Source: Saprospiraceae bacterium (GTDB lineage Bacteria > Bacteroidota > Bacteroidia > Chitinophagales > Saprospiraceae). From it: a stretch of 42,185 bases of DNA. Below the pieces are notes generated by a model, which searched no databases, was not told where the DNA came from, and saw only the letters and a list, made by a program, of their open reading frames with translations. This document shows, one piece after another, positions 9,742-28,615 of this stretch; position 1 is the stretch's first letter, and each line of letters starts with the position of its first letter. The DNA lies in NCBI GenBank assembly GCA_027488855.1, contig JAIYAV010000173.1:1-42185 (forward strand), in the 5' to 3' direction. The translations under genes and the position numbers were made by a program.

Positions 9742-9848
9742 GGTTTTGCGGTATTGAATGAGGAGCTAAGCTAGGGATTTTTTGGGGAAAATGTAGGAAT
9801 TTGGATTAAACTGTCCCTAACTTTAATCACCACTTATCTGAGCGAATA

Positions 9849-9879
9849 TTGATAATCCACTAAAATTCCATTAGTTTTG
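9849..9879 (+). promoter_or_regulatory. Bacteroidota-type promoter for the DUF433 gene
   Basis: TTG at 9849-9851, 20 bases, then TAGTTTTG at 9872-9879 is a full match to the TTG/TAnnTTTG consensus. Transcription would start near 9886, about 14 bases before the ATG at 9900, giving a very short leader. Confidence 0.55.
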
Positions 9880-9899
9880 TCGAGGCTAAATGTTGAAAT

Positions 9900-10097
9900 A
9901 TGGAATACCTGACAGAGAGAATTACCATTGATGAAAACCTTTGTAATGGAAAACCGACGATTCGTGGGAAACGCATCACGGTACAAACCATACTGGAGTT
10001 TTTAAGTGTGGGGGAAAGTGAAGAGGAGATTTTGCGGCAGTATCCTTCGTTGGAGGTTGAGGATATTAAAGCGTGTTTGGAGTTTGAAAAGTTTTAA
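9900..10097 (+). CDS. DUF433 antitoxin-like protein, unpaired
   Basis: This 65-residue protein carries the whole DUF433 signature: ITIDENLCNGKPTIRGKRI, then TVQTILEFLSVGESEEEI, and LRQYPSLEVEDIKACLEF. The family has a winged or homeodomain-like helix-turn-helix fold and is normally the antitoxin partner of a downstream PIN-like (DUF5615) toxin. Here the next gene is on the opposite strand and its stop is 1 base away, so no toxin partner follows. The upstream neighbour is divergent. It may be an orphan antitoxin left after loss of the toxin, or a stand-alone regulator. It has a good promoter of its own (9849-9879). Confidence 0.85.
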   Translation: MEYLTERITIDENLCNGKPTIRGKRITVQTILEFLSVGESEEEILRQYPSLEVEDIKACLEFEKF

Positions 10098-10098
10098 T

Positions 10099-11691
10099 TC
10101 AGTTAGCAGCATTACTAGAGTATTTTTTGATTAAATCCGCCACCTCTTCTACATCTGAATATCCTGCCTGTAAGCCTATATGATAGGCATTTTGTAAAAT
10201 GGGGAGGCCTCGTTCGATTGCATTATGTTCACACAAGACATAGCCAAAATACGAACCTACCTTATAAATGGCATTCACATCTCCAATTTCCTTTGCAGTG
10301 TTATATGCCAATTCTTCTAATTCCAAGAATTTTTGATAGTCATTTTTCCGATTCAAATAGAGGGCGGCCATATTGTGTAAAGTGGCACACATGCCGGAAC
10401 GGTCGCCGATTTTCTGCTGGATGGCCAAACTTTGCTCCAAATAACGCAGGGCCGTGTTGTGGTCGCCCTTGGCAACATAGATTTGGCTGATGTTATTCAA
10501 AGTTGTACCCTCCCCAGAACGGTCTCCGATTTGCTGTTGAATATCCACGCTTTGACCTAAATAGCGCAAGGCCGTGTCGTAGTCTCCCTTAGCAGAGTAA
10601 AGTTGACTCAAGTTATTCAATGCAACAGCTTTACCATAACTGTCGCCGATTTGTTGACTTATGGCTAAACTTTGATTTAAACAATACAAAGCCTTGTCAT
10701 AGTTGCCTATGTAGACATAGATTTGACTAATATTATTCCAAATAGAACCTTCACCAGAACGATCACCGATTTGCTTCCATATGTTCAGACTTTGCTCTAA
10801 ATAGTGTAAGGCTGTGTCATAGTCGCCTTTGGCCTTATAGATTTGGCTGATGTTATTCATTGTAGAGATCTCACCGGAACGGTCGCTAATTCGTCGCTGT
10901 ATAGCAAGATTTTTTTCAAAATAATATAGCGCTTCGACATAGTTAGCTTTAGTCAACTCTATTACACCTAAGATATTGTTCGATTGGCTCTGTCCTTCTC
11001 GATCCTCTATACGCTCAAAAGTCAATAAGGCAGTCTTAGTCTCAGCAATAGCTTCTTCGTACATACCAATAGTATAATACAATTCGCCCAAGTGTTGATG
11101 CATTTGGGCAACTAGTCCTTCAGCATTTGTATCTTCACTGATCGAAGCGATTCGTTTTTGTAAGGCTTTGATTTCCTCTTCTTTCTCATGCAAGGTATAA
11201 TTACGGTAAGGTTCGCGTTTAAAATCATTAATAATGAACATCCAATCCTTTCCTGTACCATACCCCCTCAATTCCGCCAACAAACTCCTCACCGACCAAA
11301 TATCTGGTATCTTCCGTGGGCACTCCTGCAAAAGTTTTCGATCCAATGGTACAAAACACACCAGCGCTATCGCCAACTTCGTAATCAAATCCCTTTTCTG
11401 ATTAAACCCCAAAGCCAACGCCTCATTTTTAAGCAACAACTCAAAATCATCAATAAAAACCAATCCGGCGGGTGTGTCAAGAATATTTTGGATAAAATCT
11501 GTATTAGGTTCTGCACCTACTTTTAAGATAGTCATCCTCCGCTCTGGATATTTTTCTATCAATGCCGCTTTGACTCTGTCAATCAAGCTCAAATGATCAT
11601 AGGCCACCACAATAAAATGAAACCGCTCGCCCCGTGCAGCCTTTACAATCAAATCAATCTCTTCCTGAACAGTCGCGTTAATTTCCGACAT
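10099..11691 (-). CDS. TPR protein with a degenerate ATPase-like N-terminal domain
   Basis: This is a 530-residue cytoplasmic protein. Residues 1-145 form an alpha/beta domain with FHFIVVAYDH where a P-loop would be expected, but no GKT. A Walker-B-like strand follows (LVFIDDFELLL, about 77-87), then a helical region. I infer a degenerate NTPase or a protein-interaction module. From about 165 a short coiled stretch leads into tetratricopeptide repeats of exactly 40 residues (about 195-480), for example NNISQIYKAKGDYDTALHYL. The repeats are nearly identical in places. The gene overlaps the preceding AAA ATPase by 14 bases, so translation is probably coupled. No nuclease, protease or membrane effector is visible. 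The family was not recognised by name. Confidence 0.7.
   Translation of the reverse strand: MSEINATVQEEIDLIVKAARGERFHFIVVAYDHLSLIDRVKAALIEKYPERRMTILKVGAEPNTDFIQNILDTPAGLVFIDDFELLLKNEALALGFNQKRDLITKLAIALVCFVPLDRKLLQECPRKIPDIWSVRSLLAELRGYGTGKDWMFIINDFKREPYRNYTLHEKEEEIKALQKRIASISEDTNAEGLVAQMHQHLGELYYTIGMYEEAIAETKTALLTFERIEDREGQSQSNNILGVIELTKANYVEALYYFEKNLAIQRRISDRSGEISTMNNISQIYKAKGDYDTALHYLEQSLNIWKQIGDRSGEGSIWNNISQIYVYIGNYDKALYCLNQSLAISQQIGDSYGKAVALNNLSQLYSAKGDYDTALRYLGQSVDIQQQIGDRSGEGTTLNNISQIYVAKGDHNTALRYLEQSLAIQQKIGDRSGMCATLHNMAALYLNRKNDYQKFLELEELAYNTAKEIGDVNAIYKVGSYFGYVLCEHNAIERGLPILQNAYHIGLQAGYSDVEEVADLIKKYSSNAAN
10370..10980 (-). repeat. 120-bp tandem repeats inside the TPR gene
   Basis: Words such as GAACGGTCGCCGAT recur at exact 120-base steps (near 10397, 10517, 10637, 10757 and 10877), matching the 40-residue TPR unit. 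The high identity at DNA level suggests recent duplication or gene conversion and makes copy-number change likely. Confidence 0.8.
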
Positions 11692-13030
11692 ACTGGCGAT
11701 ATAAGTTAGACAATTCGACCACCGGGTTTACCCTTTTGTATGAACCATCATTGTATTCCATCACAATAATGTCTTCCAACATTTCCTGAATGATGTCGTC
11801 AAAAGGGGTGTCGCGGTTGTTTTTGTTGTTTTCGCTGATTTCCTTCAGTTTGCTCAGCTTATCATCGGTCAAGTATTGTGCTGCCTGATTGCCCAGCCTG
11901 GTTAGTGCTTTATCCAAGGCAGGCATGTCAATTTTTGCTTTGGATTCATCGGCTTGAAAGGATGCATTTTCCAGAATGCGCAACAATTCACGTGGAGAAC
12001 CGCCGCCGTGTAATATGGCTTTTTCTACCACAGCTTCACTTTCAAACAAAGCTGCATCTATCCGTTTATCAACAAACTCTCTGAAACGTTCAATAGCGGC
12101 AGGAATGGGGGTGCCATCACGTTGCAACAACTTGACAAAAGGAAAAGCTTCAATGGTGCTGAATTGCGCAATTTTTTGTCTTTCCCGCATCAATTCAATG
12201 GGCAGTGTAAAGATGGTATAAGCCTTAATCTGGCGCAGGCGATTGGATTCTTCAATGACAATTTTGCGCCGCGTTTCGACACTCATCGTTTTTTCCAAAC
12301 CGTCTACCACAAAAAGCAGTTCTTGCCCAGCCTTGTTTTGGCGCAAAGCTAAATTGACCTCTTCGACAAATTGATTGAATAGATTGGCAAACTCAGGAAA
12401 GCGGTTTTTTAAAGTAGTACGGATGACAGTAGCCCGCTCTTTACTTCCGGTGATGCCTAGTTTGAGTTTCCCAGTGATGCCCAAAATGGCTTTGAGTAAG
12501 CTTGGCCCGGTAGCATCCAATCCAAATTCTGCACCAGCTTCGCCTTTTAAGGATTTTTTAATCTCAGTTTCCCGTGTCTGGAACCATTTTTCAAAACGCT
12601 CGAGAATTCCATCATCCACCTTTATCCTTCGCTCATCCAGGAGCGCGGTCAGCTTTTCCAGTTGAAAAACCAGAATGTCCATATACTCCACATCGTTCAT
12701 ATCCAATTCTTCGTCGACATTACAGGTCACACAGAAGAAACATTCGGGACGATGTAAATTTTTGACATATTTTGCCAGCTCAGAGGTTTTTCCAGTGCCA
12801 CGCATGCCGCCTAAAAAGAAAAGCGTCTTGTTGCGGCTGTTGCGAATATCGAAGCTGAAATTTCCACTTTTGCGCGATACATTGAGGATTTTGTACACTC
12901 GATTTTCTTCAAAATCGCCGCGAACAGTGCTGAAATCGGTATAAAAGGGGTGATCTGGCCCAACGGGTTCGTTAAATACAACCGCTTGGTCAATCTCTTC
13001 TAGTGCAGTTGCTTTTTTTGGATCGGACAT
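11678..13030 (-). CDS. AAA/STAND-like P-loop ATPase, first gene of AAA-TPR cassette
   Basis: This 450-residue protein starts at the ATG at 13030; an upstream TTG at 13066 is less likely. It has Walker A GGMRGTGKT (74-82), Walker B ELLFVVDGLEK (237-247, Asp243), and an arginine in GGGSPRELLRIL (342-353) that fits a sensor-2 position. A C-terminal winged-helix-like part (VMEYNDGSYKRVNPVVEL) follows. Between the Walker motifs lies a glycine-rich hydrophobic insert (about 160-195, with LLKAILGITGKLKLGITG) that could touch a membrane or a partner. The pattern is like ORC/AAA_16 or STAND-type switch ATPases. It is preceded by a clear promoter and overlaps the TPR gene. A switch role in a signalling or defence pair is inferred. 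Confidence 0.75.
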   Translation of the reverse strand: MSDPKKATALEEIDQAVVFNEPVGPDHPFYTDFSTVRGDFEENRVYKILNVSRKSGNFSFDIRNSRNKTLFFLGGMRGTGKTSELAKYVKNLHRPECFFCVTCNVDEELDMNDVEYMDILVFQLEKLTALLDERRIKVDDGILERFEKWFQTRETEIKKSLKGEAGAEFGLDATGPSLLKAILGITGKLKLGITGSKERATVIRTTLKNRFPEFANLFNQFVEEVNLALRQNKAGQELLFVVDGLEKTMSVETRRKIVIEESNRLRQIKAYTIFTLPIELMRERQKIAQFSTIEAFPFVKLLQRDGTPIPAAIERFREFVDKRIDAALFESEAVVEKAILHGGGSPRELLRILENASFQADESKAKIDMPALDKALTRLGNQAAQYLTDDKLSKLKEISENNKNNRDTPFDDIIQEMLEDIIVMEYNDGSYKRVNPVVELSNLYRQYVGN

Positions 13031-13077
13031 CTGAAGTACTATTTGTTCGTGCCTACTTGTAACCAATGGAAAACCAC

Positions 13078-13110
13078 CAAATATACATAAAAGGTTTAGA
13101 TCAAGCCAAA
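13078..13110 (-). promoter_or_regulatory. Bacteroidota-type promoter of the AAA-TPR cassette
   Basis: On the minus strand TTTG (13107-13110), 21 bases, then TATATTTG (13078-13085) is a full consensus match. The leader to the ATG at 13030 would be about 40 bases. It lies in the divergent gap with clpB. Confidence 0.55.
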
Positions 13111-13254
13111 TTTACGCCTTTTAATGTCAAAAGGGCAGGATGAAGCAAATTCTCCTGCCAAATTTTCCTAAAATCACCTTGGCAAATCTTTTGCTATATC
13201 CCCTAATACTGACAAAAACATCAGATATTAGCCAAATAAAAAGCACAAAACGAA

Positions 13255-16011: not shown

Positions 16012-16266
16012 ATTGCGATCAGAGAAAAAGCTGCTGATTTTAGACAAAAAAGGGATAGAAATTCTACCCCGGGGGACTCCTACTTCCTTCGCCGTTAGGC
16101 ATAACCGTCCACGTGGGAGTTTCAGAATCCGGTACAAAATTGAGGTGTTTTTACTCGATTGTCAAGCATTTCAAAAAATCGAACCCATCTTTTCCCACTT
16201 TTCAACTCCTTCGACTATCTTGAAGACACTATTTTAAAGTACCTTTTTCAACTCAAAATCCATTTC
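16012..16266. other. Gene-free stretch before the ADP-ribosylglycohydrolase gene
   Basis: Together with the clpB terminator this forms the longest gap in the window (15952-16266). Apart from the weak promoter at 16220-16247 I see no gene, RNA or clear repeat in it. The short open frames that cross it lack family features. Confidence 0.5.
16220..16247 (+). promoter_or_regulatory. Probable promoter of the ADP-ribosylglycohydrolase gene
   Basis: TTG at 16220-16222, 17 bases, then TACCTTTT at 16240-16247 gives one mismatch to TAnnTTTG. The ATG follows 19 bases later at 16267. Confidence 0.35.
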
Positions 16267-17634
16267 ATGAAAAGCGTCTATTCTTTTAGCTTTTGCTTTC
16301 TGATTATACTTTGTAGCAATGGCCTAAATGCCCAAAAAGCCAAAACAGACGAGCCCCACCGTGACCCCCAACTCACCTACCAAACCTATCGCCCCAAACC
16401 CACCGATCGCATCCTCTCCCGCGCCACCTACCACCAAAAACTCTACGGTTTCTGGCTCGGCCAATGCATCGCCAACTGGACGGGCTTGGTCACCGAAATG
16501 GACAAAATTGGCAACATCGGAGAAATCAAAACCGGGCCTTTTTACACCCGCGCCGATTGGGGCAAAGCCGATCAACCCAACATTTGGGACAAAACCACCG
16601 TCAGCAAGTGGTCACCGACCCTGGATTTTGTGTTGGAAAAAGAAGGCGGCCTTTGGGGTGCCGACGATGATACCGACATCGAATACATCTACCAGGCACT
16701 ACTTTACGGCAACAAAACCTCCGTATTGAGCGGCCCCCAAATCCGTGAAGGTTGGCTCAAACACATCAAGGCTGAAGAAGAAAACTTCCTCTGGGTTTCC
16801 AATCAAAAAGCCTTTGACCTGATGAGAACTGGCCTGGTACCGCCCGCTACCAGCGACCCCGCCAACAACCCCGAGTACGACATGATCGACGCCCAACTCA
16901 CCACTGAAATCTTCGGCTTTTTCACCCCCACTCGCCCGGATGTTGCACTCAAAATGGCCCAACTGCCCATTCAAACCACCGCCCGCGAAAACGCCCAATG
17001 GATTTCCGAGTTTTACGTGATCATGTACTCCTTGGCTTCCGCCGCCGACCCCAAAAAATCCAGCAAAGAAAACCTGCAATGGATGGCCGACGAGGCGCGC
17101 AAACACCTGCCGCAAGATTCCTACTCCGCCAAAATGTACGACTTTGTCAAAAGCCGCTATAAGGCTGGCATCCCCTGGGAACAAACCCGCGACGAGGTCT
17201 ATCAACGCTATCAGGTTGAACAAGCCGATGGCTACACCATGACATCCCAAAACCGCTACTGCAACGCCTGTTTTGCCGCGGGCATCAATTTTGCCTCCAG
17301 CATCATCAGCTTGTTGTACGGCGAAGGGGACCTGAAAGAAACCATCAAAATTGGTGCGCTAGCGGGTTGGGATTCGGACAATCCCACTGCTACCTGGGGT
17401 GGCTTATTGGGCTTTATGTTGGGCAAAGAAGGGGTGGAAAAAGCTTTTGGCCGTAAGTTCGCCAATCAGTTCAACATCCATCGCACCCGGATCGGGTTCC
17501 CGAACAATGGGATTGATACTTTTGAAAACATGGCCAAAATTGGGGTTTATATTGTGGATCGGGCCGTGCAAGAAGAAATGGGTGGGGGAGTGGATTTGAA
17601 AAAGAATCGCTGGTATATTCCAATGAAAAATTAA
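16267..17634 (+). CDS. Exported ADP-ribosylglycohydrolase family protein
   Basis: The ATG at 16267 opens directly into a signal peptide (SFCFLIILCSNGLNAQ); the earlier TTG frame would hide it. The 455-residue protein has both metal-binding signatures of the ARH fold: Asp133-Asp134-Asp135-Thr136-Asp137 (GADDDTDIEYIYQALL) and GWDSDNPTATWGGLLGFMLG with Asp369 and Asp371. Family members remove ADP-ribose from proteins or act on related N-glycosidic bonds using two Mg ions. Export is notable because intracellular ADP-ribosyl proteins would then not be the substrate; an extracellular N-glycoside or a nucleoside-like compound is possible. The gene stands alone behind the clpB terminator. Confidence 0.85.
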   Translation: MKSVYSFSFCFLIILCSNGLNAQKAKTDEPHRDPQLTYQTYRPKPTDRILSRATYHQKLYGFWLGQCIANWTGLVTEMDKIGNIGEIKTGPFYTRADWGKADQPNIWDKTTVSKWSPTLDFVLEKEGGLWGADDDTDIEYIYQALLYGNKTSVLSGPQIREGWLKHIKAEEENFLWVSNQKAFDLMRTGLVPPATSDPANNPEYDMIDAQLTTEIFGFFTPTRPDVALKMAQLPIQTTARENAQWISEFYVIMYSLASAADPKKSSKENLQWMADEARKHLPQDSYSAKMYDFVKSRYKAGIPWEQTRDEVYQRYQVEQADGYTMTSQNRYCNACFAAGINFASSIISLLYGEGDLKETIKIGALAGWDSDNPTATWGGLLGFMLGKEGVEKAFGRKFANQFNIHRTRIGFPNNGIDTFENMAKIGVYIVDRAVQEEMGGGVDLKKNRWYIPMKN

Positions 17635-19621: not shown

Positions 19622-22285
19622 ATGTCCGAACTCGCCCTGGCCCTCATTCGCGAAGCAAAAGAAAACCAAAGTACCTTTTTGGATTTAGGCAACTGCGGCC
19701 TAACTGAACTACCTGCTGAACTTTTTGAGCTTGTGCACCTGGAGGTTTTATACCTTTGTATGAAAGGGGGGTATTATGATGAAAATCAAAAATTGGTTCG
19801 CTTTGAGTCGAAAAATGAAGGTGCACCCAATGATATTCAGTATTTTTCCACTAAAATGCGCCAATTGGCAAAGCTTAGAGTGCTGCTGGCAAATGAGTGC
19901 CAGTTGGGTGATTTAAGTCCATTGCAAGATTTAGTTAATTTGCAAATACTTACAATTTCTGCGACTCAAGTGAGCGATTTAAGTCCCCTGCGAGATTTAG
20001 TTAATTTGCAAACGCTTTCCGCTGCTGGAACCCCAGTGAGCGATTTAAGCCCCTTGCAAGATTTGAGTAATTTGCAAACGCTTTACTTTCCCCAGACCCA
20101 GGTGAGTGATTTAAGTCCAGTGCAAGATTTAGATAATTTGAAAATACTTGATGTTTCCTATACCCCAGTGAGCGATTTAAGCCCCTTACGAGATTTAGTT
20201 AATTTGCAAATACTTGACGTTTCCTCTACCCAAGTGAGCGATTTAAGTCCATTGCAAGGTTCGAGTAATTTGCAAGAGCTTTACTTTACCCAAACCCAAG
20301 TGAGTGATTTAAGCCCCTTGAAGGATTTATACAAGCTGCAATCGCTTTCCGCTTTTGTGACTCAAGTGAGGGATTTAAGTCCATTACAAGATTTGGTTAA
20401 TTTGCAAAGACTTGATATTTCCTGGACCCAAGTGAGCGATTTAAGTCCCTTAAAAACAATCCTAGAAAGAGGAATACTGTTTAATTCGGGCTATGAGGTT
20501 TCAGAAATTGCGATTCATGTCGACAACTGCCCTCTCATCAACCCACCTATGTCAATAGCCAAACAAGGCAATAAGGCCATTCTCCGCTACTGGAAAGAAC
20601 AAGAAAGGAGTGGTACCCGCAAGGTGAATGAAGCCCGCCTGCTGGTAGTGGGCCAAGGCGGAGCGGGAAAAACAACCCTAAAAGATAAACTCATAGATGC
20701 CCAGGCTCCCATGCCCGAACCCGATGCCACCACCCGGGGCATCAACATTGAGCCAATCCAATGCAAAAACCGGGAAGGGGATGAGTTTACCGTCAACATC
20801 TGGGATTTTGGCGGGCAAAACATCCAACACTATGCGCATCAGTTTTTTATGTCCGATTCGGTGGTGTATGCCGTTTTATCAAATACCCGCGAGCAAAATG
20901 CGAATTTTCAATATTGGTTGAACATCATCGAATTATTGGGCAAAAACAGCCCCTTTTTTATTGTGCAAAATGAAAAAGACGGGCATACCGAGGGTTTAAA
21001 AGAGATCGTCAAAATCCAGGAACGTTTTCCCGAAACCTTCCAATCGGTGGAGCAAGTGAATTTAAAAAATGCCGCGAGTGACCGCCGTTTTGTGGCCTTG
21101 AAAGAAAAACTGTTCCACAGCGCTACGCAATTGCCGCATACCCAAAAGGAGGTCATCAACTCATTTTTCAATGTCCGCGAAAAATTGGCTACCCTATCCG
21201 CAACTGAACCGACCATCCCTTTCGCCACATTTCGCCAATATTGCCGCGACGAGGGTATCGAAGACAAAAACTTGATGAACGACTATGCTTTAATGATGAC
21301 CGAACTGGGCATTGCCTTGTATTATCCTGATGATCTGCATTTGAAAAACACCGTTTTTCTCAGCCCCAAATGGTTGATTGATGCCTTGTTTAAATTGCTC
21401 TACCACCCCTCCGTAGAACAGCAAAACGGCCAATTTACCAGTGCCGCAGCCGATGCGATTTGGTCAGAACCTGAATACGAGGACAAACATGGTCTTTTGA
21501 TCCAGGTGATGGAAAAATTCCGCTTGTGCTTCAAAACCCGTGGGGATACCTATATCGTGCCGCAACGCCTGCCGCTGCGCCAGGAAGCCTTTGTGCCCCC
21601 AGCCGATGCCACCCATCTGATTTACCAATACAAATTCCTGCCCAGTGGCTTTTTGACCCAATTAACCTGCGAATTGCATGATAAAATTGAGGCAGAAAAA
21701 GTTTGGTCCGACGCCGTGCAATTCGTCAGCAAAGACGGACAAGGCCGGGTTTTTGCCCGGGAGAACAACCAGGATCATAAAATAGAATTGTTCGGTTTTG
21801 GTGCGTCAAAAGCCGATTTGCTCAATCGCGCCGTTGAAGTGATCGATGATATTCACGCCAACACAAAATTTAAAAACTTGGTGGTGGATAAATTGGTGCC
21901 TTGCCCCTGTGCCGCGTGTAAAAAAGACGATGCACCTCATTTTTTCAAGTACGAAGTCCTCAAAAGGCGTTTGCAAAATGGCAAAACCAAAACCGAATGT
22001 GAAAAATCAGATGAGGAATTGTACATCGCTATGGTTTTGAAAAACGCCAATATTCAAGCCGTGAACATAGCGGAAATACGTGGTTTAATTGCCCAATATA
22101 AACCCCAGGAGGCAGTGAACTTGCTGAAGGGTTTATACCCCAATGAATGGGCACAAATGTCGGGTCGTTTATCGCAGTTATCACAGTCCGATAGATCGGG
22201 TATCATAGCTCATGGGGAGAAAAGCCTGGAATACAACAAATGGGCGCAAGATTTTTTAGCGATAGCGGCGGATTTATTGCGTTGA
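19622..22285 (+). CDS. Roco protein: LRR-Roc-COR with effector-associated-type C terminus
   Basis: This 887-residue protein starts MSELALALIREAKENQ. Residues 15-290 are leucine-rich repeats of 22-23 residues with the phrase VSDLSPLQDLVNLQ. The Roc GTPase has P-loop GQGGAGKTT (344-352), the G3 motif WDFGGQNIQHY and a G4-like NEKD. A COR domain follows (LSPKWLIDALFKLLYH). A cysteine-bearing segment (PCPCAACKKDD) leads to a C-terminal helical module (about 814-887: IRGLIAQYKPQEAVNLL, then LSQLSQSDRSGII). That module fits the effector-associated domain class 11 pattern of Bacteroidota conflict proteins. Roco proteins are GTP-controlled dimeric switches. No kinase is fused here, so output probably goes through a partner bearing a matching module. 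Confidence 0.85.
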   Translation: MSELALALIREAKENQSTFLDLGNCGLTELPAELFELVHLEVLYLCMKGGYYDENQKLVRFESKNEGAPNDIQYFSTKMRQLAKLRVLLANECQLGDLSPLQDLVNLQILTISATQVSDLSPLRDLVNLQTLSAAGTPVSDLSPLQDLSNLQTLYFPQTQVSDLSPVQDLDNLKILDVSYTPVSDLSPLRDLVNLQILDVSSTQVSDLSPLQGSSNLQELYFTQTQVSDLSPLKDLYKLQSLSAFVTQVRDLSPLQDLVNLQRLDISWTQVSDLSPLKTILERGILFNSGYEVSEIAIHVDNCPLINPPMSIAKQGNKAILRYWKEQERSGTRKVNEARLLVVGQGGAGKTTLKDKLIDAQAPMPEPDATTRGINIEPIQCKNREGDEFTVNIWDFGGQNIQHYAHQFFMSDSVVYAVLSNTREQNANFQYWLNIIELLGKNSPFFIVQNEKDGHTEGLKEIVKIQERFPETFQSVEQVNLKNAASDRRFVALKEKLFHSATQLPHTQKEVINSFFNVREKLATLSATEPTIPFATFRQYCRDEGIEDKNLMNDYALMMTELGIALYYPDDLHLKNTVFLSPKWLIDALFKLLYHPSVEQQNGQFTSAAADAIWSEPEYEDKHGLLIQVMEKFRLCFKTRGDTYIVPQRLPLRQEAFVPPADATHLIYQYKFLPSGFLTQLTCELHDKIEAEKVWSDAVQFVSKDGQGRVFARENNQDHKIELFGFGASKADLLNRAVEVIDDIHANTKFKNLVVDKLVPCPCAACKKDDAPHFFKYEVLKRRLQNGKTKTECEKSDEELYIAMVLKNANIQAVNIAEIRGLIAQYKPQEAVNLLKGLYPNEWAQMSGRLSQLSQSDRSGIIAHGEKSLEYNKWAQDFLAIAADLLR
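19905..20455 (+). repeat. LRR-encoding tandem DNA repeats of about 66 bp
   Basis: GTGAGCGATTTAAGTCC-type words return every 63-69 bases for about nine copies inside the Roco gene. Repeat number could change by recombination and so alter the ligand surface. Confidence 0.8.
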
Positions 22286-26855: not shown

Positions 26856-27524
26856 TTATTGGCAGGCTACGATTAGTTTTTCAACCCAGGCTCGGAAGCG
26901 TGGGCATTTTTCGAGGATGGTGTGGATGCCGATTTCTTCAGCGATTAGATTGCCTTCAACTACTTTGTCATACTTTTCTTCGTAATCACTGAGGATTTTT
27001 TGAATTCTTTTCGAAGGAGCCGTATCGGGGTGATTGTTGATATCTTCTGGATCAGGATATTGATCTATTATGGATTGGGTAGCTTGAGCAACACCAGAAT
27101 CAATATCATTATACATGGCGGAGAAACCTTGGTTGTTGGAAAATAATAAGGCTTCAAATTCAAACTTCTGAATGTAAGGGAGAAATCGAGGATGATCGAT
27201 GTCGCTAGCCATGCCTTTTTCCAAAATGTCTATCTTTGTATTGGGATCAACTGCTCTCAACATTTTAGCGTAGTCAGGAACAGAAGTCGGGATACGGAAA
27301 AAATCAATAAAAGTGGACACCACAACGTCGGGTTCTCTCAATCTTTTGAGTATGTCATTTTTCAAGTGCTGATAATTGACAAAACCACCTTTGTGTCCAT
27401 GACTTGTTTGGATCAATATGCCTGTAAGATTGAATATTTCGTGTGTGAACAAGTATTGGCGCAATATCCCATTGACGAAGGTTTCTTCCGTTTTACCCTC
27501 AACGATAACAAATATTCTTTTCAT
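26856..27524 (-). CDS. DUF4276 (TOPRIM-like) protein, partner of AAA ATPase
   Basis: This 222-residue protein begins MKRIFVIVEGKTEETFVN, where Glu9 in the VEGKTE motif corresponds to the acidic residue of TOPRIM-like folds. An acidic strand-end in STFIDFFRIP, the phrase IQKFEFEALLFSN and PSKRIQKIL further along are typical of DUF4276. The family is found next to ABC-type ATPases in two-gene cassettes that look like those of anti-phage systems (compare OLD/TOPRIM, PARIS and AbiL). Its start overlaps the stop of the ATPase gene by 4 bases (ATGA), so translation is coupled. The base composition is visibly more AT-rich than the neighbouring genes, a sign of transfer. A nuclease role is inferred. 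Confidence 0.75.
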   Translation of the reverse strand: MKRIFVIVEGKTEETFVNGILRQYLFTHEIFNLTGILIQTSHGHKGGFVNYQHLKNDILKRLREPDVVVSTFIDFFRIPTSVPDYAKMLRAVDPNTKIDILEKGMASDIDHPRFLPYIQKFEFEALLFSNNQGFSAMYNDIDSGVAQATQSIIDQYPDPEDINNHPDTAPSKRIQKILSDYEEKYDKVVEGNLIAEEIGIHTILEKCPRFRAWVEKLIVACQ

Positions 27525-28615
27525 GGCTTCCCACCAATTATGCCCTTGTACCAGATTTCGCCTAGTCCATATTCTTCAAGCCAGATTTGCAGTTTATCTG
27601 AATCTAAACGCTTGAACTCCGATTGTTCATTTTTACGATCAACTACAATAATATCCTCGGGTTCAAATTCATTAACCAATTGAATAGACTGAGTAGACAA
27701 AATGACTTGACTTTTTGGAGTCACTTTCCGAATCAACCCTGCTAACATCGTAATGGCACTAGGATGAAGTCCCAACTCAGGCTCATCGATAATGATGACT
27801 TTGGGTGGGTTTGGTTGTAGCATCAATGTAGTTAGTGCTATAAATCGGAGTGTTCCATCTGAAAGGTTCTGTACATTTTGATAACGGTCATAGCCAATTT
27901 CTTTCCATTCTAGTTGAATATACTCCTCATTTAGTCGGTCGGGATGTAAGTTGAATTGACCAAAAAAAGGAGCAATTGACCGAATAACCTTTTCAATAAG
28001 ATTAAGTCTTTGGGGATGTTTTTCTTGCAAGTAGTATAGAAAAGCAGCAAGGTTGCTACCATCTTCACGTAGAAAAAGATTGTCGTGTACTCTAGCTGTT
28101 TTTTTCAAGGGCGAGTCAGCCGAAGTATCGTGAAAATGGTAAACATATAATGTGTCGAAATAATCAGTGGTTAATTTATACACAGCTTGATCTTCTCTCA
28201 CCAAATGAATACTCTGATCAGTCTGATTATAATTGGTGTAGCCTTGTCCTAACGTTTGATCGTCCCCAGTCCATTGAGTGCTTGATTCGTGATCAATGAT
28301 AGCCAAATTTTTATTATCTGGTTTCAACGAGAAATCATAGGTATGAATCAAGGCTTCATTATCTTTTGAAAAAGAAAGCTCGCCCCAAATAGGTATTCCT
28401 GCACCAAGGCCATAATTGACTAGATTGTCCATATACCCTTGTTCTGCAACATATTTGTTGAGTGTATTATTTTTTAAGCTTCTCAACATTTTAAAAAATG
28501 AAATAAAATTGCTTTTTCCAACGCCATTTGCACCAATTAAGATGTTGGTCCTACTAAGAGTTAGTTCCAACGCTCGGATAGACTTGAAATTTGCAATGGC
28601 GATTTTTTTTATCAT
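27521..28615 (-). CDS. ABC-type AAA ATPase (AAA_21, OLD/RecF-like)
   Basis: The 364-residue protein starts MIKKIAIANFKSIRALELT, the usual opening of OLD/RecF-like ATPases. It has Walker A LIGANGVGKSNFI (28-35 core), a signature motif NLSDGTLRFIALTTLML, Walker B KVIIIDEPELGLHPSAI and a switch region SQVILSTQSIQLVNEF. The ATPase head should dimerise and control its partner, the DUF4276 protein encoded directly downstream with a 4-base overlap. There is no fused nuclease domain, so the DUF4276 partner probably carries the effector. The gene is AT-rich and sits between unrelated housekeeping units, which supports horizontal gain. It is a defence-type cassette by analogy, unproven. Confidence 0.82.
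   Translation of the reverse strand: MIKKIAIANFKSIRALELTLSRTNILIGANGVGKSNFISFFKMLRSLKNNTLNKYVAEQGYMDNLVNYGLGAGIPIWGELSFSKDNEALIHTYDFSLKPDNKNLAIIDHESSTQWTGDDQTLGQGYTNYNQTDQSIHLVREDQAVYKLTTDYFDTLYVYHFHDTSADSPLKKTARVHDNLFLREDGSNLAAFLYYLQEKHPQRLNLIEKVIRSIAPFFGQFNLHPDRLNEEYIQLEWKEIGYDRYQNVQNLSDGTLRFIALTTLMLQPNPPKVIIIDEPELGLHPSAITMLAGLIRKVTPKSQVILSTQSIQLVNEFEPEDIIVVDRKNEQSEFKRLDSDKLQIWLEEYGLGEIWYKGIIGGKP

Follow-up and report, generated by a model that had tools for sequence, protein, structure and literature searches.

An Orc/STAND-like ATPase linked to a P-loop-less TPR partner in a Saprospiraceae bacterium is probably an unnamed immune switch

We describe a pair of overlapping genes in a 42,185-nucleotide stretch of DNA from a Saprospiraceae bacterium (contig JAIYAV010000173.1 of assembly GCA_027488855.1; 'the window' denotes this whole stretch). 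One gene encodes a P-loop ATPase and the other a partner protein in which an N-terminal domain (N-domain) precedes an array of tetratricopeptide repeats (TPRs). The pair is one heritable unit. The N-domain appears to be a degenerate second NTPase domain whose predicted structure moderately resembles the AAA+ folds of ORC and Hda, and relatives of the pair are, as judged by domain matches, fused to STAND, phosphoesterase and TIR-like modules. Taken together, these features suggest that the pair is probably an unnamed immune switch. Its principal elements are as follows.

11678..13030, minus strand: ATPase gene, 450 amino acids, Orc/STAND/KAP-like P-loop ATPase; ATG start, open frame, putative C-terminal winged helix
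12785..12808, minus strand: Walker A motif GMRGTGKT, ATPase residues 75-82
10099..11691, minus strand: partner gene, 530 amino acids, N-domain plus C-terminal TPRs (Pfam TPR_12); open frame
11152..11691, minus strand: degenerate NTPase-fold N-domain of the partner, approximately residues 1-140 (region to 180); lacks a P-loop, keeps R100 and D130
13078..13110, minus strand: Bacteroidota-type promoter TTTG-N21-TATATTTG, an exact match 47 nucleotides upstream of the ATPase ATG

Results

The two genes travel together

The initial annotation of this DNA had proposed a split two-protein unit, and comparison across genomes bears this out: an N-domain gene follows the ATPase gene in 46 of 51 informative loci. 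Fifty distinct loci were examined first. Three of them (L059, L093 and L097) reach a contig edge; among the remaining 47, the next gene on the same strand matched the N-domain at an expectation value (E) <0.01 in 42, and all four further plasmid loci also carried the partner. In Calothrix, the second gene after the ATPase, not the next one, was counted as the partner. Because 24 loci were used to build the profiles, the fairer count is that for loci outside this set, 22 of 27, and because many loci are close relatives the 51 do not amount to 51 independent events; L162-L165, for example, are near kin of the two proteins behind the cyanobacterial profile. Within the first 47 pairs, 33 overlap and nine more lie no more than 5 nucleotides apart, with start codons chosen automatically.

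Several choices define these counts. Broken or weak cases scored as present were L094 (a 91-residue piece), L099 and L102 (split ATPase) and L161 (E 0.004). Duplicates (L002, L011, L042, L101 and L150), two fragments (G023:C699 and G340:C3), second places in two Nostoc plasmids and ATPase matches weaker than 1e-15 in fetched loci (L105 and L106) were left out, and genomes whose matches were weaker than 1e-20 (12 of 26 order-set and 4 of 29 phylum-set genomes) contributed no loci. The family as a whole is patchy. With the source genome included each time, ATPase relatives occur in 5 of 60 genomes of relatives, in 29 of 395 genomes of a phylum-wide set (25 with E <1e-20) and in 26 of 396 genomes of an order-wide set (14 with E <1e-20); relatives were also found in four loci of a genome contig collection and in seven plasmid records, all of the latter cyanobacterial.

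The reverse search gives a concordant picture. A profile built from window-like partners (A3), which mostly finds the window type, returned eight N-domain matches in 7 of 395 phylum-set genomes, seven of them directly behind an ATPase gene and the eighth a 49-column fragment. On plasmids, tblastn with the window N-domain found no match, but profiles did detect the domain there. The initial annotation had named homologues of the ATPase mostly lacking the TPR gene as an outcome that would refute it. That outcome does not hold for the close family, in which the partner is present in the large majority of loci, as counted above, although the distant ATPases L105 and L106 lack it. These two, with L104, are among the loci of the NF053860 model, which matches 17 of 296 genomes, none above its cut-off; their matches to our ATPase profile are weak (1.5e-4 for L105, 3.1e-9 for L106) or, for L104, absent at 1e-3, and no N-domain gene stands behind any of the three.

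Gene overlap and promoter

The two reading frames share 14 nucleotides and are preceded by a promoter of their own, both as initially described. Across the whole window, a promoter-like pattern with a spacer of 19-21 is found twice where 0.83 occurrences would be expected, a count reached by 20 of 100 shuffled sequences; the site is therefore credible because of its position, not its rarity. An alternative ATPase start, TTG at 13066, would add 12 residues, but lies only ~12 nucleotides from the -7 element.

The ATPase subunit has intact nucleotide-binding motifs

The P-loop ATPase motifs noted initially are all recognizable in the window protein: Walker A as listed above, D243 within FVVDG and a sensor-2-like GGSPR347. 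Among 15 aligned homologues, R37, G75, G78, G80, K81 and R323 are each invariant, position 243 is always acidic and R347 is present in 14; both Walker motifs of STAND/Orc-Cdc6-type AAA+ ATPases are thus found. The pattern of the C-terminal alignment suggests a winged helix. No curated Pfam model exceeds its cut-off for the window ATPase, the first being AAA_16 at 22.9 bits against a cut-off of 32.6; at E 0.001, AAA_16 matches 7 of the 15 ATPases, KAP 6 and nSTAND_NTPase5 3. No housekeeping family in Pfam, NCBIfam or PADLOC claims the protein. A PDB sequence search with the single ATPase sequence returned no match, and one with the ATPase profile returned SRP-receptor, TnsC and FtsA, all marginal.

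The partner N-domain resembles an NTPase that has lost its P-loop

Consistent with the early description of the N-domain as P-loop-less with a Walker-B-like IDD strand, the partner has no P-loop pattern and carries FIDDF at residues 79-83. The same holds more widely: a scan of residues 1-170 in 39 partners, 37 of which have the N-domain, found no P-loop pattern. In all 37, R100 and D130 are conserved, and R135 is found in 29. The domain (LN..RE...DL.S.R, with R100 and D130 kept throughout) could serve as a marker for finding further members.

An AlphaFold model of the N-domain built from five sequences has a mean predicted local distance difference test score (pLDDT) of 66.5; across residues 11-120 the block means are 72-88. 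The model contains strands at 24-31, 52-57, 76-81, 108-115 and 136-139 with helices in between. Foldseek placed human ORC chains first (E 6.0e-5, TM-score 0.44, root-mean-square deviation 5.5), followed by Hda and RFC; the best-matching chain, D, is one we take to be ORC4. Six matches have E <=0.001, the TM-scores of the best six span 0.41-0.47, and the defence protein Avs4 appears at rank 27 (3.4e-3). A P-loop NTPase-like fold without Walker A is thus found, at moderate model confidence and moderate TM-scores. PDB sequence searches with the N-domain gave only matches at E 0.04 and 0.16. R135 immediately precedes the last strand, the location of arginine fingers in AAA+ proteins, and may be such a finger.

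Pairwise alignments of N-domains of the window, f37-family and cyanobacterial types gave E-values of 0.0076 (probability 5%), 4.6e-5 (69%) and 1.4e-6 (90%, spanning 60 columns), and intermediate partners such as L101 and L158 are matched by all three N-domain profiles.

The C-terminal part of the partner varies

In the window protein the TPRs score far above the Pfam cut-off, and no other kind of model in Pfam, NCBIfam or PADLOC exceeds its cut-off. The repeats had been called near-identical; they have a 120-bp period, but at the DNA level they are only 70-71% identical. The scan of 39 partners (cut, split or broken proteins at L009, L050 first copy, L053, L054, L094, L098, L154 and L159, and the later additions L162-L165, were left out) found TPR_12 in 34, Metallophos, NACHT and FGE-sulfatase in 8 each and nSTAND1 in 3 (E 1e-5). 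In L057 and L060, forms carried by family f37, the N-domain is followed by TPR, Metallophos, NACHT and FGE, and L057 in its phosphoesterase part resembles the antiphage model DS8 (2.1e-33, below the model's cut-off) as well as PADLOC PDC-S60 and effector models. On Nostoc and Acaryochloris plasmids, the N-domain protein is annotated with WD40 repeats in several records and has an nSTAND1-like P-loop and a stretch resembling TPRs. In Calothrix, the ATPase and the N-domain gene are separated by a second ATPase copy:

L062 7291-9384: Calothrix plasmid fusion of this ATPase family and a TIR/SEFIR-like domain; its C-terminal stretch resembles, by eye, an effector-associated domain

Among relatives, the TPR part is often the fastest-diverging region. 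Between L055 and L096, identity is 96% for the ATPase, 92% for the N-domain and 56% for the remainder; the corresponding values for L043 and L151 are 80, 76 and 44%. L051 and L056 share 94% of N-domain positions and have matching tails, yet their remainders are only 45% and their ATPases 63% identical, which suggests that they are mosaics. By eye, the partners L157 (6800-8536) and L158 (6871-8358) end in a SEC-C-like cysteine motif, and at L011 (3537-4658) a third gene encoding 373 residues, without an NCBIfam or PADLOC match at E 0.001, stands directly behind the pair.

The pair is present at a site that is empty in three congeners

In the window, the pair sits between an aminotransferase gene, identified by eye, and clpB, identified by Pfam, which are 3513 bp apart, within a segment that also holds a DUF433 gene.

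9785..13151, no strand: segment of ~3.37 kb comprising the pair, its promoter and the DUF433 gene; three congeners lack it at this site
9900..10097, plus strand: DUF433 gene, convergent with the TPR gene; in the accessory segment, outside the conserved pair

In congeners G001, G002 and G004, in which the aminotransferase is 99, 93 and 100% identical, the corresponding gaps are 359, 255 and 200 bp; blastn shows that the region equivalent to ~9785-13151 is missing and replaced by ~55-115 unrelated bases. In a fourth congener, G003, the two flanking genes lie on separate contigs. The segment has a GC content of 41.5% against 48% on both flanks, and by eye we noticed no target-site duplication at it. 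It could have been gained here or lost elsewhere. In the gap of G001 (L116), ~150 extra bases just upstream of clpB have by eye an inverted-repeat look and are perhaps a miniature inverted-repeat transposable element.

Discussion

Our favoured explanation, with somewhat better than even confidence, sees the pair as an accessory counter-invader module of a split Orc/STAND type in which a dead subunit carries the sensor. Its parts deserve separate weight. It is likely that the two proteins form an obligate complex; we lean towards a mixed AAA+ oligomer of live and dead subunits, and moderately favour the TPRs as its sensor. A role in defence or conflict seems reasonably probable because of the company of STAND, phosphoesterase, lectin-like FGE and TIR-like modules, the divergence of the TPRs, the patchy distribution and the presence or absence of the segment at one site. 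All four kinds of module are used in conflict systems, as described in parts of several published accounts (PMC7159879, PMC8195603, PMC12839542, PMC10907252).

In such a module, the 450-residue protein would be a live ATPase switch of the Orc/STAND/KAP kind, and the 530-residue protein a dead Orc-like subunit that joins it and possibly lends its neighbour conserved basic residues, namely R100 and also R135, which precedes the last strand. The TPR array, held out by the dead subunit, would act as a fast-changing sensor: a trigger on the TPRs could cause the ATPase to exchange nucleotide, leading to assembly of the mixed complex and then to an output. Elsewhere, this output might come from the phosphoesterase-NACHT-FGE or nSTAND1-WD40 parts of the dead subunit or from the TIR-like domain of the second ATPase copy. 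In the window form, it could be the complex itself or a partner acting in trans.

The plan of the pair resembles that of published nSTAND2 and iSTAND systems. In the description by Kaur et al. (2021), nSTAND2 is a mobile operon of two genes, one for a live and one for an inactive STAND module, with GT4 or HEPN effectors (PMC8195603). An alternative is that our pair is simply a member of this operon family in which TPRs replace the effectors. As far as that description extends, the likeness is clear: two adjacent genes, which the pair has, a live and an eroded STAND-type NTPase with a conserved arginine, a variable module on the eroded one, and mobility. GT4 and HEPN are the commonest, though not universal, modules on the dead subunit of nSTAND2, whereas here we find TPRs, and elsewhere phosphoesterase-NACHT-FGE or nSTAND1-WD40; neither GT4 nor HEPN is among the families of the window protein or the 25 commonest of the 109 Pfam families matched by the 39 partners. 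The nSTAND2 family itself is close to CR-ATPase/Dap3/RNA12, and no Pfam model named nSTAND2 appears among the families matched by the ATPases or the window proteins. We consider membership unlikely.

A second alternative, similarly unlikely, is a signalling or stress switch outside immunity, in which the TPR protein would detect the state of the cell and the ATPase would control a cellular target in the manner of MalT/AfsR-like STAND regulators. The minimal window form has no recognized effector or DNA-binding output, MalT-like and AfsR models are among the TPR matches, and the pair occurs once in its own genome, all of which fit such a role. The patchy distribution, absence from congeners and TPR divergence argue against it, as do the fusions to phosphoesterase, NACHT, FGE and TIR-like domains.

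It is very improbable that the pair, together with the DUF433 gene, is a decaying selfish or addiction-type cassette with no cellular function. That gene does share the segment, and at least 9 of 50 loci (L003, L049, L050 first copy, L054, L061, L094, L098, L099 and L102) have broken or shortened frames beyond contig-end effects; however, the 15 aligned ATPases keep their catalytic residues, the copy in the window is intact, the pair includes no toxin-like gene, and none was noticed beside the DUF433 gene.

Least probable of all is a KAP-type membrane-linked NTPase: KAP_NTPase weakly matches 6 of 15 ATPases (best 2.1e-6) and plasmid annotations name a KAP family NTPase (H4) and a P-loop NTPase fold protein (H7), but KAP NTPases have a transmembrane insert in the P-loop domain, and in the window ATPase, the one protein for which hydropathy was computed, the top 19-residue Kyte-Doolittle mean is 0.99, with no transmembrane-like stretch. 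The glycine-rich insert (residues 155-200), initially suggested to act on membranes, moreover looks charged in the alignment, and we dropped both that idea and KAP membership.

Returning to the split counter-invader module, several other systems offer comparisons. iSTAND of MoxR-vWA ternary systems and BrxB of BREX are described, in parts of the relevant papers, as inactive STAND/Orc-fold subunits and proposed sensors beside an active AAA+ ATPase (PMC7159879, PMC12839542). Our pair shares this juxtaposition; it differs in that its dead subunit is fused to TPRs and no MoxR or vWA gene adjoins it. A MoxR-vWA ternary system was ruled out, the neighbours being the aminotransferase, DUF433 and ClpB, with no vWA among 10 further open reading frames of the window. 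Single-chain STAND/NLR proteins with repeat sensors, Avs among them, likewise join an ATPase switch to a repeat sensor, but in the pair these stand on two proteins, the sensor protein having its own dead NTPase fold. From DefensePredictor, DS-41, which is named once in the main text as far as this source was covered (PMC13092281), includes a remote relative of the ATPase: DS41_1 matches 6 of 15 homologues, at best at 6.7e-8. Its cut-off of >370 bits is far above the 22.4 bits of the window ATPase, and 0 of 296 genomes exceed it. DS-8 resembles the family only through the phosphoesterase of a fused partner, and no DS model matches any of 19 partner N-domains. In literature judged by titles and abstract openings, we found no published description of this pair.

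A number of observations weigh against the favoured explanation. Its main weakness is that the window pair has no recognizable effector. No defence model matches at its curated cut-off (where given), and PADLOC finds nothing for the window ATPase; on the 15 homologues its matches are weak (VakA 6, PDC-S20 3, mad8 3; best 1.5e-6). Together with the DS41_1 likeness, these matches agree with defence but prove little. The immediate neighbours look like housekeeping genes, and searches of phage records and viral contigs found no relative of the pair, on which grounds we dropped the idea of a phage- or viral-contig-borne gene. The five loci with no detectable N-domain comprise L049 and the first copy of L050, each followed by a phosphoesterase protein that lacks the domain, L061, in which the domain is largely deleted, L098, which is broken, and L160, whose partner nevertheless aligns with R100 and D130; the partnerless L105 and L106 lie outside this count. 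TPR divergence is not universal: ATPase, N-domain and remainder are 96, 95 and 91% identical between L057 and L058, and between L045 and L046 the N-domain (63%) is nearly as divergent as the remainder (54%) beside 91% identical ATPases. On the structural side, the AlphaFold model of the ATPase (three sequences, pLDDT 50.7) was unusable and kept out of the fold search, the fold likeness of the N-domain is modest, and the weakest of its three cross-lineage alignments is poor.

More broadly, and only tentatively, the family could represent a split-STAND immune platform shared across phyla, in which a live Orc/KAP-type ATPase and its P-loop-less twin would form a hetero-oligomeric core for interchangeable receptors and effectors (TPR sensors, phosphoesterase-NACHT-lectin, nSTAND1-WD40, TIR), the window pair being the smallest form. 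If the split reading is correct, the switch and the sensor of NLR/STAND proteins would here be separated into two small proteins, giving a simple two-gene system in which to study the part that dead NTPase subunits are proposed to play in several immune systems.

Some further genes were noticed in the window and around relatives. Of eight hand-picked proteins that were scanned, six are neighbours, and two of these six gave matches, a type I restriction piece in L058 and a TIR protein in L056. In the window, positions 19622-22285 (plus strand) encode an LRR-Roc-COR protein of the AP-GTPase type, a class listed as a conflict-system component in part of one survey (PMC8195603). An AAA_21/AAA_15 (AbiEii-like) ATPase at 27521-28615 (minus strand) is followed by an overlapping gene for 222 residues at 26856-27524 (minus strand), possibly another defence pair, and an ADP-ribosylglycohydrolase-type protein is encoded just after clpB at 16159-17634 (plus strand).

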